Shown: positions 32,377 through 44,858 of the stretch, in pieces
Layout of the letters: each line of letters starts with the position of its first letter
Position numbering within the stretch: the first letter of the stretch is position 1
Assembly (NCBI GenBank): GCA_027686065.1
Contig: JAQCTH010000024.1
Coordinates: 1 to 46,532 of the forward strand
Origin: Clostridiaceae bacterium AF10-41
GTDB lineage: Bacteria; Bacillota; Clostridia; Clostridiales; Clostridiaceae
Direction: 5' to 3'
DNA length: 46,532 nt
Notes under the pieces: generated by a model
What the model saw: only the letters and a program-made list of their open reading frames with translations
The model's database searches: none
What the model was told of the DNA's origin: nothing
Made by a program: the position numbers and the translations under genes

Positions 32377-32461
32377 GGGGGAGTTCCCGAGTGGCCAAAG
32401 GGGGCAGACTGTAAATCTGTTACGTTTCGTTTCGATGGTTCGAATCCGTCCTCCCCCACCA
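32377..32461 (+). tRNA. tRNA-Tyr (GTA), copy 1
   Basis: An 85-base class II tRNA. The acceptor GGGGGAG pairs with CTCCCCC, the anticodon loop is CTGTAAA, the variable arm is long, and the T-arm contains GGTTCGAATCC. Discriminator A and CCA are encoded. The anticodon stem is intact. Confidence 0.97.
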
Positions 32462-32491
32462 TTTTATAAATATATTTTAGTAATTTAACGT

Positions 32492-32567
32492 GGAAGCATA
32501 GCTCAGCTGGGAGAGCATCTGCCTTACAAGCAGAGGGTCACAGGTTCGATCCCTGTTGTTTCCACCA
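32492..32567 (+). tRNA. tRNA-Val (TAC)
   Basis: A 76-base cloverleaf. The acceptor is GGAAGCA with TGTTTCC (one G-U pair), the D-arm is GCTC/GAGC, the anticodon TAC lies at 32525-32527, and CCA is encoded. Confidence 0.96.
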
Positions 32568-32672
32568 CTTTGGCATTGAAGACTTAATGAAGTAGAGCAT
32601 AGCGATAACTGAATTTAGTTTGAAAGCCTATCAGCTGAAAGAAGAGAAGAAGCTGTTTTATTAATTAAATAT

Positions 32673-32744
32673 GCTGGCATGGCTCAACGGTAGAGCAGCT
32701 GACTTGTAATCAGCAGGTTGTAGGTTCGATTCCTATTGCCAGCT
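32673..32744 (+). tRNA. tRNA-Thr (TGT)
   Basis: The acceptor GCTGGCA pairs with TGCCAGC, the anticodon is TGT, and the discriminator is T. The next bases are CCT, so unlike its neighbours the CCA end is not encoded and must be added or repaired by tRNA nucleotidyltransferase. A 105-base spacer without a tRNA separates it from tRNA-Val. Confidence 0.95.
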
Positions 32745-32751
32745 CCTATAT

Positions 32752-32836
32752 GGGGGAGTTCCCGAGTGGCCAAAGGGGGCAGACTGTAAACCTGTTACGT
32801 TTCGTTTCGATGGTTCGAATCCGTCCTCCCCCACCA
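32752..32836 (+). tRNA. tRNA-Tyr (GTA), copy 2 with anticodon-stem mismatch
   Basis: Identical to copy 1 except for one T-to-C change at position 39. This turns the base pair closing the anticodon loop from A31-U39 into A31-C39. CCA is encoded. It lies seven bases after tRNA-Thr. Confidence 0.96.
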
Positions 32837-32837
32837 T

Positions 32838-32866
32838 AAAAAGACAAATTTTTTGTCTTTTTTTTA
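32838..32866 (+). terminator. Terminator of the tRNA cluster
   Basis: AAAAAGACAAA (32838-32848), a three-base loop, TTTGTCTTTTT (32852-32862), then further T residues. Confidence 0.9.
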
Positions 32867-32933
32867 TTTTCAAAATTAAAGACAACATTTCACAAAATAA
32901 TACATATAAATATGAATATTAAGAAGTCTATAG

Positions 32934-32962
32934 TTGACTATTAATATTAAAAATGATATAAT
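32934..32962 (+). promoter_or_regulatory. Sigma-A promoter of metK
   Basis: TTGACT (32934-32939), 17 bases, TATAAT (32957-32962). The start of transcription falls about 20 bases before the S-box. Confidence 0.88.
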
Positions 32963-32986
32963 CTGAAAAGTAAAATTTGATATTAG

Positions 32987-33140
32987 TTCTTATCCAGAGA
33001 GGCGGAGGGAAAAGGGCCCGATGAAACCCGGCAACCTACTTCATTAAGTTTGAGTGTGGTGCCAATTCCTGCAAAGTAATTTTGCAAGATAAGAAAGATT
33101 ATGATTTTTGTTGTCTCTTCTTATCGAAGAGACTTTTTTT
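32987..33140 (+). promoter_or_regulatory. SAM-I riboswitch (S-box) with terminator
   Basis: The P1 helix pairs TTCTTATC (32987-32994) with GATAAGAA (33088-33095). The conserved core CAGAGAGGCGGAGGGA, CCCGATGAAACCCGGCAACC and GGTGCCAATTCCTGC is intact. A terminator (33113-33120 with 33126-33133, then seven T residues) follows. When SAM binds, P1 is stabilised and the terminator forms, switching off metK; without SAM, an antiterminator is expected. Confidence 0.98.
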
Positions 33141-38098: not shown

Positions 38099-39121
38099 AT
38101 GTTAGATAAAGGGCTAATAAAAATTAGGGAGTTTAATAATTGTACTTCTAGGATAAATAAATGGTATAACAAGCAATCAAAAATACTAACTATAATAACT
38201 AACCCGTATAATAGTGCATTAATATTTATAGGCTTAATAGAGAATGTATTAAAAGAGAATAAGAAAATATTATATATTTGGGGTGGAAATGAACCTAATA
38301 AAGAGATAGTAGAAATATTAAAAGAACGGAATCTTAATTTTACTTATTCATATATAGAAGAAAAAGAAGGAAAAGAAGATTTAACATTTTTAAACTTTGT
38401 AAGTACAAGTAAAATAAAAAAAAATTATGACTTATGTATATTTGATGACATAAGTACTTATTCAAAAATTTCAAAAGAAAACTTAAGAGAATGTGTAGAA
38501 GATTTATATCTATATGGGAATAGAATGATAATATTTTCTATAGAAAAAATAGTTAATATGGGGAAAAGTATGTTCCTTTCAGATTTTAAAAGGGCTAAGC
38601 CCTTTGTAGAACCAAGAATAATTACAACAAGAGTAAAATTAGATGAGGATATACCGTATACTTTATATGATTATTTAATGTGGTTTAAAAGTAATAATAG
38701 GAAAGTTATTATATTTGTTCCAACAGAAGAAAAAATAAATAAATTATATAATTACTATAAAGAAGAATTAAAGATTAAGGATGTAAGAATAATTAAATTC
38801 TTAAAGGGAGATAATTTAAAAGAAATAGAATTAATATATAAATTAAAAAATAAAAGTGTATTTGTAATTACAAATAATATAAGAAGTTATGCAAAGGAGA
38901 TAAATGATATAGATATAGTAGCATTATTTTCAGATGATATTTTTTATAGTTATAAAAGGATAATATACTTTTGTTCAGATGTAGGAAAAAATACTAAAGG
39001 TGATAAAATGGGAGAAGTAATTTTAGTTGCTAAAGAAATATCAAAAGATATGGATTTAGCTAAGAATATGACAAGAGGTTATAATAAAGAGATATGGGAA
39101 AAGGGTTTATTAAATTATTAA
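38099..39121 (+). CDS. Degenerate ComFA-like helicase
   Basis: A 340-residue protein between recD2 and comFC, where ComFA would stand. The second half follows the ComFA helicase C-domain: RKVIIFVPTEEKINKLYNYY, VFVITNNIRSYAKEINDIDIV, and a tail GEVILVAKEISKDMDLAKNM that matches the usual GDV...K...M..A pattern. The ATPase machinery is lost: there is no Walker A (ITNPYNSALIFIG stands in that area), the DEAD-like box reads FDDIS (D116, D117), and the motif VI segment QIAGRAGR has become YFCSDVGKN (290-298). The N-terminal zinc finger is missing too. The frame is intact and codon use is like the neighbours, so it is a maintained but catalytically inactive protein. GAGGAGAG precedes the ATG. It overlaps comFC by 28 bases. 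Confidence 0.72.
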   Translation: MLDKGLIKIREFNNCTSRINKWYNKQSKILTIITNPYNSALIFIGLIENVLKENKKILYIWGGNEPNKEIVEILKERNLNFTYSYIEEKEGKEDLTFLNFVSTSKIKKNYDLCIFDDISTYSKISKENLRECVEDLYLYGNRMIIFSIEKIVNMGKSMFLSDFKRAKPFVEPRIITTRVKLDEDIPYTLYDYLMWFKSNNRKVIIFVPTEEKINKLYNYYKEELKIKDVRIIKFLKGDNLKEIELIYKLKNKSVFVITNNIRSYAKEINDIDIVALFSDDIFYSYKRIIYFCSDVGKNTKGDKMGEVILVAKEISKDMDLAKNMTRGYNKEIWEKGLLNY

Positions 39122-39738
39122 AAGAATTTCTTAATGAATTTCTAGATATAATATATCCACCAATAAATAAGTGCATATCATGTGGAAGTGAATTTATAGG
39201 GCTATGCCCAATATGTAACAAAAAGATAATAAGGGTAAAGGAAAATTACAACATAATATCATATGGTTATTATAGTGGTGTAATGAAAAAATTAGTATTA
39301 GAATTTAAATATAAAAAAAATTTTATTTGTGGAGATATATTATCAAATTACTTATGTAAATTAATAGAAGAAAATAATATTAAAGCAGATGCTATATTTT
39401 TCATTCCAAGTAGCAAAAAATCCTTAAAGGAAAGAGGATTTAATCAGTGTGAATTTATGGCAAATAAAATAGGTGATAAATTAAATATACCGGTGTATAA
39501 GGATATTATTAAAATAAAAAATATAAAAGAGCAAAAAACTTTATCAAAAGAAGATAGATTAAAAAATATACAGGGAGCATTTGGAATTAGAAGCAGTAGA
39601 AATATAAGCAATAAAAATATCATATTAATAGATGATGTTGTAACGACTGGTGCAACTTTATTGGAGTGCGAAAAATTACTTATAAATAATGGAGCTTGTT
39701 CAATAAAAATGTTGACAGTTGCCAAAAGTTATATATAA
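39094..39738 (+). CDS. comFC: ComFC-like phosphoribosyltransferase
   Basis: A 214-residue ComF-family protein: zinc ribbon with C27, C30, C38 and C41 (CISCGSEFIGLCPIC), KERGFNQCEFMANKIG, and the PRPP-binding LIDDVVTTGAT (178-188). ComFC homologues take part in DNA uptake and processing in competent bacteria, but they are also kept in species with no known natural transformation. The start overlaps the end of the ComFA-like gene by 28 bases, so translation is probably coupled. Its stop codon is embedded in the -10 box of the following RNA gene. Confidence 0.92.
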   Translation: MGKGFIKLLKEFLNEFLDIIYPPINKCISCGSEFIGLCPICNKKIIRVKENYNIISYGYYSGVMKKLVLEFKYKKNFICGDILSNYLCKLIEENNIKADAIFFIPSSKKSLKERGFNQCEFMANKIGDKLNIPVYKDIIKIKNIKEQKTLSKEDRLKNIQGAFGIRSSRNISNKNIILIDDVVTTGATLLECEKLLINNGACSIKMLTVAKSYI

Positions 39739-39739
39739 T
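39712..39739 (+). promoter_or_regulatory. Full-consensus sigma-A promoter of the raiA-motif RNA
   Basis: TTGACA (39712-39717), 16 bases, TATAAT (39734-39739), a perfect match to both boxes. The -35 box is in comFC coding sequence and the -10 box covers its stop. Transcription should start near 39745-39746, at the first base of helix P1. Confidence 0.88.
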
Positions 39740-39744
39740 AATAA

Positions 39745-39953
39745 TGTAAAGAGAGGTCTGTGGATGAAAGTCGATGCCAGTCGCAGGCAAAACGATCCAC
39801 GTAAGTTTGGAAAAGTTCCTAATGAGCATGGTGCGGTATAGAAGTAAGTCCTACCAAGAAAATTGAGAGGGTTAGTAGTGAGAGGTTAATTCCGAGTAGC
39901 AAAAGCTCCAGTAGGCGAGTGTGGGGTCAAAATCCAGGTCAGCTGACTTTACA
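39745..39953 (+). ncRNA. raiA-motif structured RNA
   Basis: A roughly 210-base structured RNA whose ends TGTAAAG (39745-39751) and CTTTACA (39947-39953) form the closing helix. Inside are GTGGAT/ATCCAC (39760-39765 with 39795-39800) around GCC-AGTCGCA-GGC, a GGT...ACC arm near 39830-39855, and GTCAGCTGAC before the 3' strand. Its G+C content is far above the flanks and there is no open frame. Position just upstream of hpf/raiA, size, and 5' region match the raiA motif known by comparative genomics from many Firmicutes and Actinobacteria. Its molecular function is not settled. It has its own consensus promoter and terminator, so it is an independent RNA rather than a leader of hpf. Confidence 0.85.
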
Positions 39954-39998
39954 AAAAAATAGCTATTAGTTTTTACTGGTGGCTATTTTTTTATTTTT
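39954..39998 (+). terminator. Terminator of the raiA-motif RNA
   Basis: Bases 39954-39970 pair with 39975-39991 (17 bp with three G-U pairs), closed by a TTTT loop and followed by a T-rich tract. It starts directly after the closing helix of the RNA. Confidence 0.92.
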
Positions 39999-40078
39999 TA
40001 AATATATAAAAGATAGAGTAAACAGAAGTTACAATGAGTAAAATAAAGTGAATTTTCTGTCAATTAACCTTATTCCCC

Positions 40079-40108
40079 TTGATTAAAGGAGCTTGAGAAT
40101 AGTATAAT
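40079..40108 (+). promoter_or_regulatory. Sigma-A-type promoter of hpf
   Basis: TTGATT (40079-40084), 18 bases, TATAAT (40103-40108). In the leader a 7-bp hairpin TAAGCTA-CATA-TAGCTTA (40135-40152) stops four bases before the AAAGGGG site and may affect translation. Confidence 0.75.
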
Positions 40109-40172
40109 ATATATATAACAAAAATTTAATCTATTAAGCTACATATAGCTTATAGAAAGGGGATGAACTTAT

Positions 40173-40709
40173 ATGAGAGTTTCAACAATAGCAAAAAATA
40201 CAACAGTAACACCAGCATTAAAAGAGATGATAGAAAAAAAGCTTTCAAAGGTGAAAAGATACTTTGATCCGGAGGTAGAAGCAAAGGCTACTTTATCAGT
40301 ACAAAAAAATAAACAAAAGGTAGAAATAACTATACCGTTTAATGGAATAATATTAAGAGCTGAAGAAGCAACAGAGGATATGTATAAGTCAATAGATTTA
40401 GTTGTAGCTAAATTAGAAAGACAAATTAGAAAGCAAAGAACAAAGTTATCAAGAAGAAACAATGAGTCATTAAGATTCCCACAATTAGATGAAGTTGCTT
40501 TAAGTGACGAAATAAAAGAAAATGATGGAGAAGTTGTTAAAGTCAAGAGATTTGGTGTTAAGCCAATGTCAGTAGATGAAGCAATACTTCAAATGGAATT
40601 AGTAGGACATAATTTCTTTGTTTATCAAGATTCAGATGAAAATAAAATATGTGTTATATATAAGAGAAAAGATGGCGATTACGGTTTGTTAGAACCAGAT
40701 TATATTTAA
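40173..40709 (+). CDS. hpf: Long-form ribosome hibernation promoting factor
   Basis: The 178-residue protein binds idle 30S subunits and, through its C-terminal domain, links 70S ribosomes into inactive 100S dimers. The N-terminal RaiA/YfiA domain covers about 1-105, with VTPALKEMIEKKLSKVKRYF and EDMYKSIDLVVAKLERQIRK. The C-terminal dimerisation domain is VKRFGVKPMSVDEAILQMEL followed by GHNFFVYQDSDENKICVIYKRKDGDYGLLEP. AAAGGGG lies upstream of the ATG. Also called raiA; it gives its name to the RNA upstream. Confidence 0.97.
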   Translation: MRVSTIAKNTTVTPALKEMIEKKLSKVKRYFDPEVEAKATLSVQKNKQKVEITIPFNGIILRAEEATEDMYKSIDLVVAKLERQIRKQRTKLSRRNNESLRFPQLDEVALSDEIKENDGEVVKVKRFGVKPMSVDEAILQMELVGHNFFVYQDSDENKICVIYKRKDGDYGLLEPDYI

Positions 40710-40737
40710 ATTTATGTTAATATTCAATTAAATTAAT

Positions 40738-40766
40738 AAAAGGAAGTGCAATGCACTTCCTTTTTA
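40738..40766 (+). terminator. Rho-independent terminator after hpf
   Basis: AAAAGGAAGTGC (40738-40749), loop AAT, GCACTTCCTTTT (40753-40764), and a further T. Confidence 0.93.
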
Positions 40767-40796
40767 GTTATAATATTATTAATATTAAGTTATTTC

Positions 40797-40826
40797 TTGA
40801 ATTGATTATTAGTAAAATGGTATAAT
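40797..40826 (+). promoter_or_regulatory. Sigma-A promoter of secA
   Basis: TTGAAT (40797-40802), 18 bases, TATAAT (40821-40826). The leader of about 130 bases is almost pure A/T with repeated TAATAAA words. Confidence 0.65.
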
Positions 40827-43472: not shown

Positions 43473-43535
43473 AATATATATAAATTGTTTTCTATACCAT
43501 GATAGTATAAAATACTAAATATTTAGATATAAACT

Positions 43536-43667
43536 AATTCACAATGCGCAATGAGCAATTCACAATTAAGGTATAAACTCTAAAGGAGTTTAGAAATATA
43601 TTTTTCATAATTCAGCTAAGCTGAATTAGTATCTAAATTGTGGACTGTGAACTGTGAATTGTGAATT
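43536..43667. repeat. Palindromic intergenic element between secA and prfB
   Basis: A 132-base imperfect inverted repeat. The left arm (43536-43568) begins AATTCACAAT, and the right arm (43634-43667) ends TGTGAATTGTGAATT. Inside are two perfect small hairpins: TAAACTC/GAGTTTA (43574-43592) and AATTCAGC/GCTGAATT (43609-43627). No coding capacity. The architecture resembles a MITE or a REP/BIME-like element. It is the best preserved member of the family in this window. Confidence 0.75.
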
Positions 43668-43753
43668 CTTTATATAATCATCCAAAGTATTATAGAGTTT
43701 TTGAGTTATATCTATAGTTAGTTTTTAAAAATAAAAAAGAATAGGGTGATGTT

Positions 43754-44858
43754 ATGATAATCAAGTTAGAAGCTGAATTAGGAAAGCTTAATGATATAAA
43801 AAAGACTATAAAGGAAATGGGGGCTTCTCTTTGACAAGGAAGCACTACAAAAACAATTAGAGGAATTAGAACTTCAAATGCAAGAAAGTGGATTTTGGGA
43901 AGATATAAAAAGGGCAGAAGAAGTTACTAAAGAAAGTAAGAGAATTAAGGATAAGATAGATAGGTTTAATTCCTTATCCTCAAGGGTTGAGGATATTGAA
44001 GTTTTATCAGAATTGATAGAGGAAGAAGATCAAGAGTCTATAAATGAAGTTATAAGAGAAATTAGACTTATAGAAAAAGATGTTGAAGAATATAGAATAG
44101 AACTTCTCTTATCGGGTGAATATGATAGAAATGATTCAATATTGACATTACATGCAGGTGTTGGTGGAAGTGATGCAAATGATTGGACAGAAATTTTACT
44201 AAGAATGTACACTAGATGGTGTGAAAAAAAAGGCTTCAAGGTAGAAACTATTGATTATTTAGAAGGAGATGAAGCCGGAATAAAAAGTGTAACATTAAAG
44301 GTGAAGGGTGAATTTGCATATGGATACTTAAAGGCTGAAAAGGGCGTTCATAGGTTAGTAAGAATATCTCCATTCAATGCAAATGGTAAAAGACAAACAT
44401 CTTTTGCATCAGTTGAAGTTCTTCCAGAGCTTACAAAAGATCAAGATATTGAAATAAAAAGTGATGACTTAAAAATTGATACATACAGATCAAGTGGAGC
44501 TGGAGGACAGCACGTTAATAAAACAGAATCTGCAATAAGAATAACCCATTTACCAACAGGAATAGTTGTTCAATGCCAAAATGAAAGAAGTCAATTTGCA
44601 AATAAAGATACAGCTATGTCTATGCTTAAATCTAAACTTATAGAATTAAAAGAAAGAGCTCATAAAGAAAAAATAGAAGATTTAACTGGAGAATTAAAGG
44701 ATATGGGATGGGGTAGCCAAATAAGATCTTATGTATTCCATCCATATAATTTAGTAAAGGACCATAGAACAAGTGAAGAAACATCAAATTTAAATGCAGT
44801 TATGAATGGTGAAATAGATAATTTCATAACAGCATATTTAAAGAGTAATAACCTATAG
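43754..44858 (+). CDS. prfB: Peptide chain release factor 2 (programmed +1 frameshift)
   Basis: RF2 reads UAA and UGA. Translation starts at ATG 43754 (AGGGTGAT upstream), runs 26 codons to CTT followed by the in-frame UGA at 43832-43834, and continues in the +1 frame (LDKEALQKQLEE). The total is about 367 residues, the normal length. GGQ is at 250-252 in SSGAGGQHVNKTESAI. The CTT-TGA-C slip site lets RF2 regulate its own synthesis: when RF2 is scarce, the ribosome pauses at UGA and shifts. The internal Shine-Dalgarno GGGGG (43819-43823) is five bases from CTT, not three as in E. coli. Substrate of PrmC. Confidence 0.96.
43819..43835 (+). promoter_or_regulatory. RF2 recoding site
   Basis: GGGGG (43819-43823), CTTCT, then CTT-TGA-C (43829-43835). 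It combines an internal Shine-Dalgarno element with the slippery CTT codon and the UGA that RF2 itself recognises. Confidence 0.93.

Follow-up and report, generated by a model that had tools for sequence, protein, structure and literature searches.

The DNA between comFC and hpf in this Clostridium very probably encodes a raiA/ModT RNA that is transcribed from a promoter embedded in the end of comFC, ends at a strong terminator and would act in trans as a free molecule of about 250 nt, its tie to comFC being held by selection. The window, by which we mean the whole stretch of 46,532 nucleotides that was analyzed, shows the following features around this RNA.

39094..39738, + strand: comFC, 214 aa, phosphoribosyltransferase fold (ORF; PF00156, 39.3 bits, cut-off 26.3)
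39712..39717, + strand: −35 box TTGACA, formed by the ComFC codons Leu-Thr (TTG ACA)
39734..39739, + strand: −10 box TATAAT, made of TA from the end of the Ile codon ATA, the stop codon TAA and one T
39745..39953, + strand: closing helix P1, with arms 39745-39751 and 39947-39953
39746..39746 (39745-39746), + strand: predicted transcription start (spacing rule, seventh base after the −10 box)
39747..39951, + strand: core of the raiA motif/ModT RNA (RF03072, 189.3 bits, E-value 1.5e-48)
39953..39992, + strand: intrinsic terminator hairpin, 18 pairs and a loop of 4, followed by a T-rich tail
40079..40108, + strand: possible separate hpf promoter TTGATT-18-TATAAT (10/12 matches; taken alone, not above chance)
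40173..40709, + strand: hpf, long form, 178 aa (ORF; PF02482 and PF16321)

The RNA and Its Promoter

By its covariance-model match, the block is a raiA-motif (ModT) RNA, a member of an already known family, as a preliminary description made from the letters alone had claimed. The full Rfam model RF03072 (1-209) aligns to 39747-39951 of the + strand with a score well above the gathering score (189.3 vs. 101.3 bits), the best of six matches in an Rfam scan of the whole 46.5-kb window, and the match spans segments of the pk-1 and pk-2 pseudoknots known from solved structures. The closing helix TGTAAAG/CTTTACA was found as claimed. In a set of 174 sequences (73 loci from relatives, the window, and 100 named loci, with some species present twice), 90.4% of the nine model pairs of P1 are standard pairs, a proportion that falls to 21–47% when the partner is slid by 1–3 bases; six standard pair types occur at seven of the nine positions and five at the remaining two. 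We set aside minimum free energy as evidence for the core, because it was uninformative: z is −0.31 without the terminator and −2.20 with it, so that the core alone is not marked as special. Such an unremarkable energy may be compatible with a pseudoknotted RNA.

The promoter TTGACA-16-TATAAT is perfect (12/12 matches). It is made up of the last eight comFC codons, the stop codon (TAA, 39736-39738, inside the −10 box) and one further base, and ends 7 bases before the motif. A single 12/12 site was found on both strands of the window, where mononucleotide shuffles predict 0.15, which bears out the earlier description of a promoter whose −10 box overlies the comFC stop. The start had been placed on the first base of the closing helix, T39745; the region is right, but counting seven bases from the −10 box leads to G39746, one base further on. 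Likewise, the terminator had been described as a hairpin of 17 bp beginning one base after the helix. A strong hairpin is indeed present, but it abuts the helix, with 18 pairs counted from 39953 and 17 once the A shared with the helix is excluded. Two terminator-like sites were found in 39000-40800, against 0.3 expected.

From this arrangement, RNA polymerase would start at 39745-39746 and stop near 39992-39998, releasing an independent RNA about 250 nt long. As in C. difficile, there may also be a second form of about 210 nt, ending with the closing helix. The terminator behind the RNA would also stop messengers that read through from comFC, making the RNA, as we propose, the 3′ UTR of comFC as well.

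Neighboring Genes and the Relation to hpf

The usual, though not obligatory, neighborhood of raiA is found here, with comFC upstream and hpf downstream. In the nearest genome compared (G001, locus L171), ComFC and Hpf are 93% and 97% identical, respectively, over the matched stretch. Within genus g1, comFC lies upstream on the same strand at 56/56 loci, and in 48 of them the first base of its stop codon is found 11 bases ahead of the motif. At 55 of the 56, hpf follows on that strand, 133–473 bases from the RNA.

Other parts of the window also hold recognizable elements. At 32377-33095, a SAM riboswitch (81.1 bits) comes after four tRNA genes. A 340-aa ORF between recD2 and comFC (38099-39121) matches DEAD helicases only weakly (19.8 bits against a cut-off of 26) and is possibly a degenerate helicase. 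Between secA and prfB (43530-43680), an inverted-repeat-like stretch identified by eye (AATTCACAAT... / ...ATTGTGAATT) is perhaps a small mobile element. At prfB (43749-43850), possible starts and a CTTTGAC stretch precede a 326-aa ORF; this stretch may be the programmed frameshift site that is typical of release factor 2.

The preliminary description had also given hpf a promoter of its own at 40079-40108. The sequence TTGATT-18-TATAAT is present there with 10/12 matches, but it is indistinguishable from chance frequency: the region around the RNA contains 12 promoter-like sites with at least 9 matches against 11.0 expected, and a site of at least 9/12 occurs between the RNA and hpf in 53 of 55 genus-g1 loci, such sites being at chance frequency in the window. 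Because promoter-like sites are as common as chance, a separate hpf promoter is unproven.

The type label that Rfam gives to RF03072 (Cis-reg; riboswitch) and the nearly constant company of hpf on the same strand would both suit an RNA that controls hpf in cis, as a riboswitch or leader. We hold this to be highly improbable. In the minimum-energy fold, the one fold considered, the terminator forms between the RNA and hpf beside an intact closing helix, and no expression platform is seen in the 221 bases that separate the RNA from hpf. The distance between the two varies from 133 to 473 bases within a single genus. Moreover, a gene other than hpf lies downstream in C. difficile, and RNA supplied from another locus restores growth, according to the accessible text of PMC11706538; a riboswitch role for the raiA motif has also been argued against (accessible text of PMC11477304). 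Action in trans rather than on hpf in cis, as put forward in the preliminary description, would by analogy fit the complementation from a distant locus, and free-standing transcription would fit the SigA promoter and separate isoforms of the C. difficile relative (PMC11706538).

Conservation of the Promoter in Family f1

We found a raiA match in 73 of 98 relatives, one per genome, and the RNA is present in 168 of the 187 family-f1 genomes with a completeness of 90% or more. Viral contigs gave no exact match to an RNA pattern with 20 fixed bases; this negative is weak because 25 of 191 known sequences, each belonging to the 73 loci from relatives, miss even the looser core of the pattern.

All 116 family-f1 loci compared, from 33 genera, have a promoter of at least 10/12 matches that ends 2–15 bases before the RNA; in 112 of them, its −35 box is part of the ComFC reading frame. 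This set comprises 56 loci of genus g1 (55 genomes and the window) and 60 loci of 32 other genera, 1 to 4 per genus, hand-picked from 112 RNA-bearing genomes outside genus g1; it excludes the RNA-bearing genera g63, g68, and g72 and eight genus-g1 genomes. TTGACN-16-TATAAT occurs at all 56 genus-g1 loci, with 7 bases between the −10 box and the motif in 49, and the best of 1650 control stretches taken further upstream in 55 genus-g1 loci reaches 10/12. All 60 loci from other genera have at least 10/12 matches and 57 have at least 11; the spacer is 16 in 56, and 58 have their −35 box within the frame of ComFC. Shifted forms are found in genus g62 (TTGCAA-17-TATAAT) and genus g59 (TTGACA-18-TAAAAT).

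Exceptions to the coding frame are L254 (comFC not found, contig end) and L262 (no good comFC frame beside the RNA). At L007 and L169, the promoter is kept though the comFC stop now lies 891 and 58 bases upstream, respectively; the sequence before the RNA at L007, TTGACAGTTAATAATACTTATATATAATAATAATG, resembles by eye a comFC tail, and so does that at L169. At both loci the promoter seems to have outlived its coding role as a relic of the comFC tail. In the five RNA-bearing genomes of g63, g68, and g72, the strict RNA pattern was absent within 600 bases after the comFC-like gene; as far as these sequences tell, embedding in comFC is not universal.

The base at the predicted start bears on how the promoter might be controlled. 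It is G in 48 of the 56 genus-g1 loci, and ModT levels drop in stationary phase in relatives (accessible text of PMC11706538), both of which would suit an rRNA-like, GTP-sensing promoter coupling the RNA to growth rate. G is found at this position in just 12 of the 60 loci from other genera, however, and we dropped the GTP-start idea as unlikely.

A conserved terminator across genus g1 was another candidate that we dropped: a hairpin lies within 10 bases in just 25 of the 56 loci, a T-rich run follows the closing helix in 15 more, and 16 have neither. Within 120 bases, a hairpin is present in 33/56 loci versus 46/284 control stretches. For loci without a hairpin, we considered the closing helix followed by a U-run as a possible terminator.

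Codon Choice and Genomes without the RNA

A promoter that is also coding sequence might be a by-product of the conservation of the ComFC C-terminus, in which case the RNA would be nothing other than a nuclease-cut 3′ UTR of the comFC mRNA. Much of the promoter is indeed dictated by the conserved protein. Leucine and threonine at the head of the ComFC tail LTxAKSxI (TTG-ACN) supply the −35 box, and conservation of this tail explains part of the promoter match, chiefly the TATAA of the −10 box (ATA-TAA).

The choice among synonymous codons is nevertheless fixed where the promoter needs it. The promoter leucine is TTG in 109/109 RNA-bearing family-f1 genes scored with a leucine there; among the 112 genes that could be scored, three have no scored leucine, namely two of genus g62 and L215, whose shortened tail was missed by the motif and which has TTGACA. 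Within genus g1, this leucine is TTG in 54/54 genes, against 83 of the 1009 leucines (8.2%) elsewhere in the same genes, and eight other conserved leucine columns, taken from 52 aligned genus-g1 genes, have TTG in 1 to 7 of 42–52 sequences, the highest share being 7 of 48. The last comFC codon is ATA in 53 of 54 genus-g1 genes (GTA in one), compared with 62% ATA among isoleucine codons, and its third base is the one needed by the −10 box.

Nineteen family-f1 genomes of at least 90% completeness, from seven genera (g1, g34, g51, g61, g65, g67, and g71), are without the RNA (loci L264-L279, L285, L192, and L193; two of genus g1 and 17 others). G059 and G075, in which the RNA is cut by a contig end, were not counted as losses, and G048, G074, and G076, for which no comFC was obtained, were set aside. 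The RNA-less loci fetched gave no Rfam family match, even at an E-value of 0.1, and hpf is present in the fetched comFC locus of 15 of the 17 RNA-less genomes tested. The leucine is kept in 12 of the 19 genes, encoded by TTA in six, by CTA, CTG, and CTT in one each, and by TTG in three (L271, L272, and L276); the other seven, including L279, carry a different residue or an unalignable tail. The TTG of L276 was read by eye, and L279, with its GC-rich, nonaligning tail, was left out; with both included the count is 4/13. The difference between genes with the RNA (TTG in 109/109) and genes without it (3/12) is large (Fisher 1.9e-11), a value uncorrected for kinship, and the independent losses are fewer than the genomes because eight RNA-less genomes belong to one genus, g51. 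RNA loss does not always erase the site, since nine of the 19 genomes still have 10 or 11 of 12 matches near the comFC stop and three keep TTG.

These persisting sites favor a by-product of protein conservation, as does family f2, in which no promoter adjoins the RNA (see below). Against it stand the fixed TTG and ATA codons, the relaxed leucine codon in nine of 12 RNA-less genes, the promoters kept at L007 and L169 despite the moved comFC end, and the SigA start site mapped for modT in C. difficile (accessible text of PMC11706538). We therefore consider a cut 3′ UTR without a promoter of its own very unlikely. According to the reading that we prefer, selection would hold the leucine TTG and the end of comFC in the Clostridium family as the promoter of the RNA. 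Because such a promoter ties the RNA to comFC, it could explain their synteny with no need for a shared biochemical function.

Family f2 and Other Lineages

In the sister family f2, no site above 9/12 was found within 60 bases of the RNA at any of 14 loci (L003, L004, L014, L023, L029, L151, L154, L157, L160, L161, L168, L177, L186, and L189), though the comFC stop lies within 43 bases. All 14 contain TGGTATAAT, an extended −10 element at the ComFC codons Trp-Tyr-Asn that ends 163–202 bases upstream of the RNA, and this sequence is absent from the other 60 loci of the same set, up to 900 bases upstream. TTG stands 18 bases before it in 11 of the 14 loci (the other three being one genus, g4), TTG accounting for 11% of the codons for leucine there. 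On the simple 12-base count, the site reaches at least 10 in five of the 14, with 0.21 such sites expected per 400 bases. In f2, TAT and AAT represent 90% and 78% of their codons anyway, and the Trp-Tyr-Asn residues may be conserved for the protein's sake. Among at least 21 ComFC-like proteins with the RxxN motif from the named loci listed, one only, from Caloramator (L103), has Trp-Tyr; 13 more proteins are without the motif. The predicted leader of 157–196 nt would be unusual. We regard TGGTATAAT as a candidate only for an f2 promoter inside comFC.

At the other end of the RNA, a T-rich run directly follows the closing helix, without a separate hairpin, in 10 of the 13 f2 loci with enough downstream DNA.

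Taken to its full extent, the proposal is more tentative, and we give it slightly less than an even chance. The comFC gene of the Clostridium family would double as the raiA/ModT promoter, its C-terminal codons being selected as DNA, which would keep RNA and comFC locked together in 33 genera and explain the synteny; in f2, the promoter would have shifted to another position embedded in coding sequence, TTG-18-TGGTATAAT, in a family-specific RWYN motif 163–202 bases before the RNA, giving a longer precursor or a comFC-derived leader.

A broader survey used named loci. At least 117 stretches were listed, 17 of which had no findable 3′ anchor; six of the other 100 were short upstream, which left 94 to be counted. 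An exact TATAAT lies 3–26 bases before the motif in 60 of these 94 loci among those listed, against 2.4 in shuffles (maximum 7), and a site of at least 10/12 ends 3–14 bases before the motif in 38 of them. The comFC gene was found within 2.5 kb upstream in at least 34 of the 100 named loci listed, a lower bound set by BLAST with clostridial queries. In 25 of these 34, the comFC stop is 48–944 bases before the RNA, and the promoter must thus lie outside comFC or at its edge.

Comparison with Known Systems and Significance

DapZ and MicL of enterobacteria are 3′-UTR small RNAs that have their own promoter within the upstream gene and share its terminator; both are Hfq-dependent base-pairing RNAs of narrow range. 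The RNA described here resembles them in having a promoter in the 3′ end of a coding sequence and a shared terminator, both predicted from sequence, and differs from them in being large and structured and in a promoter that is kept within coding sequence in 33 genera.

Published work on raiA/ModT is cited here as far as the accessible text of each article goes. The family occurs in more than 2,500 bacterial species (PMC11706538), and structures of raiA RNA have been solved (PMC12286853, PMC11751092). ModT of C. difficile is an abundant trans-acting RNA with one SigA promoter and isoforms of 260 and 215 nt; complementation from another locus works, and in a modT deletion stationary phase is entered late and sporulation is reduced via c-di-GMP. 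The SigA motif is conserved in four clostridial species (PMC11706538). ModT and the RNA of the window share the RF03072 family, a SigA promoter just upstream, a core of about 210 nt with a terminator-bearing long form (PMC11706538), and a comFC-like gene upstream (PMC11477304). In C. difficile, however, a PTS operon lies downstream in place of hpf, and the start is called intergenic, whereas the promoter is inside comFC here (PMC11706538). The raiA RNA of C. acetobutylicum (structure 9ELY) belongs to the same RNA family and was solved as a monomer (PMC12286853, PMC11751092), but the long isoform is reported to be absent there (PMC11706538); its deletion impairs sporulation and aggregation (Soares et al. 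2024, as cited in PMC11706538 and PMC11477304). The function of the family had been called unclear in the preliminary description, a statement now partly outdated by the deletion phenotypes published in these two species. By analogy with ModT, the RNA of the window may help the cell to leave exponential growth in time and to sporulate.

Among the titles, abstract openings and passages covered in the open-licence literature, we found no description of a promoter inside comFC. The comFC-embedded promoter may thus be a new aspect of an RNA family that is itself known.

The comFC neighborhood has been examined as a functional hint for raiA/ModT. If comFC does carry the promoter, this hint would be void in clostridia, and attention would turn to partners in trans. 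A single silent change in a comFC codon should lower the level of the RNA with all proteins untouched, which would make it a clean tool, and the natural losses of the RNA in family f1 provide ready-made controls.
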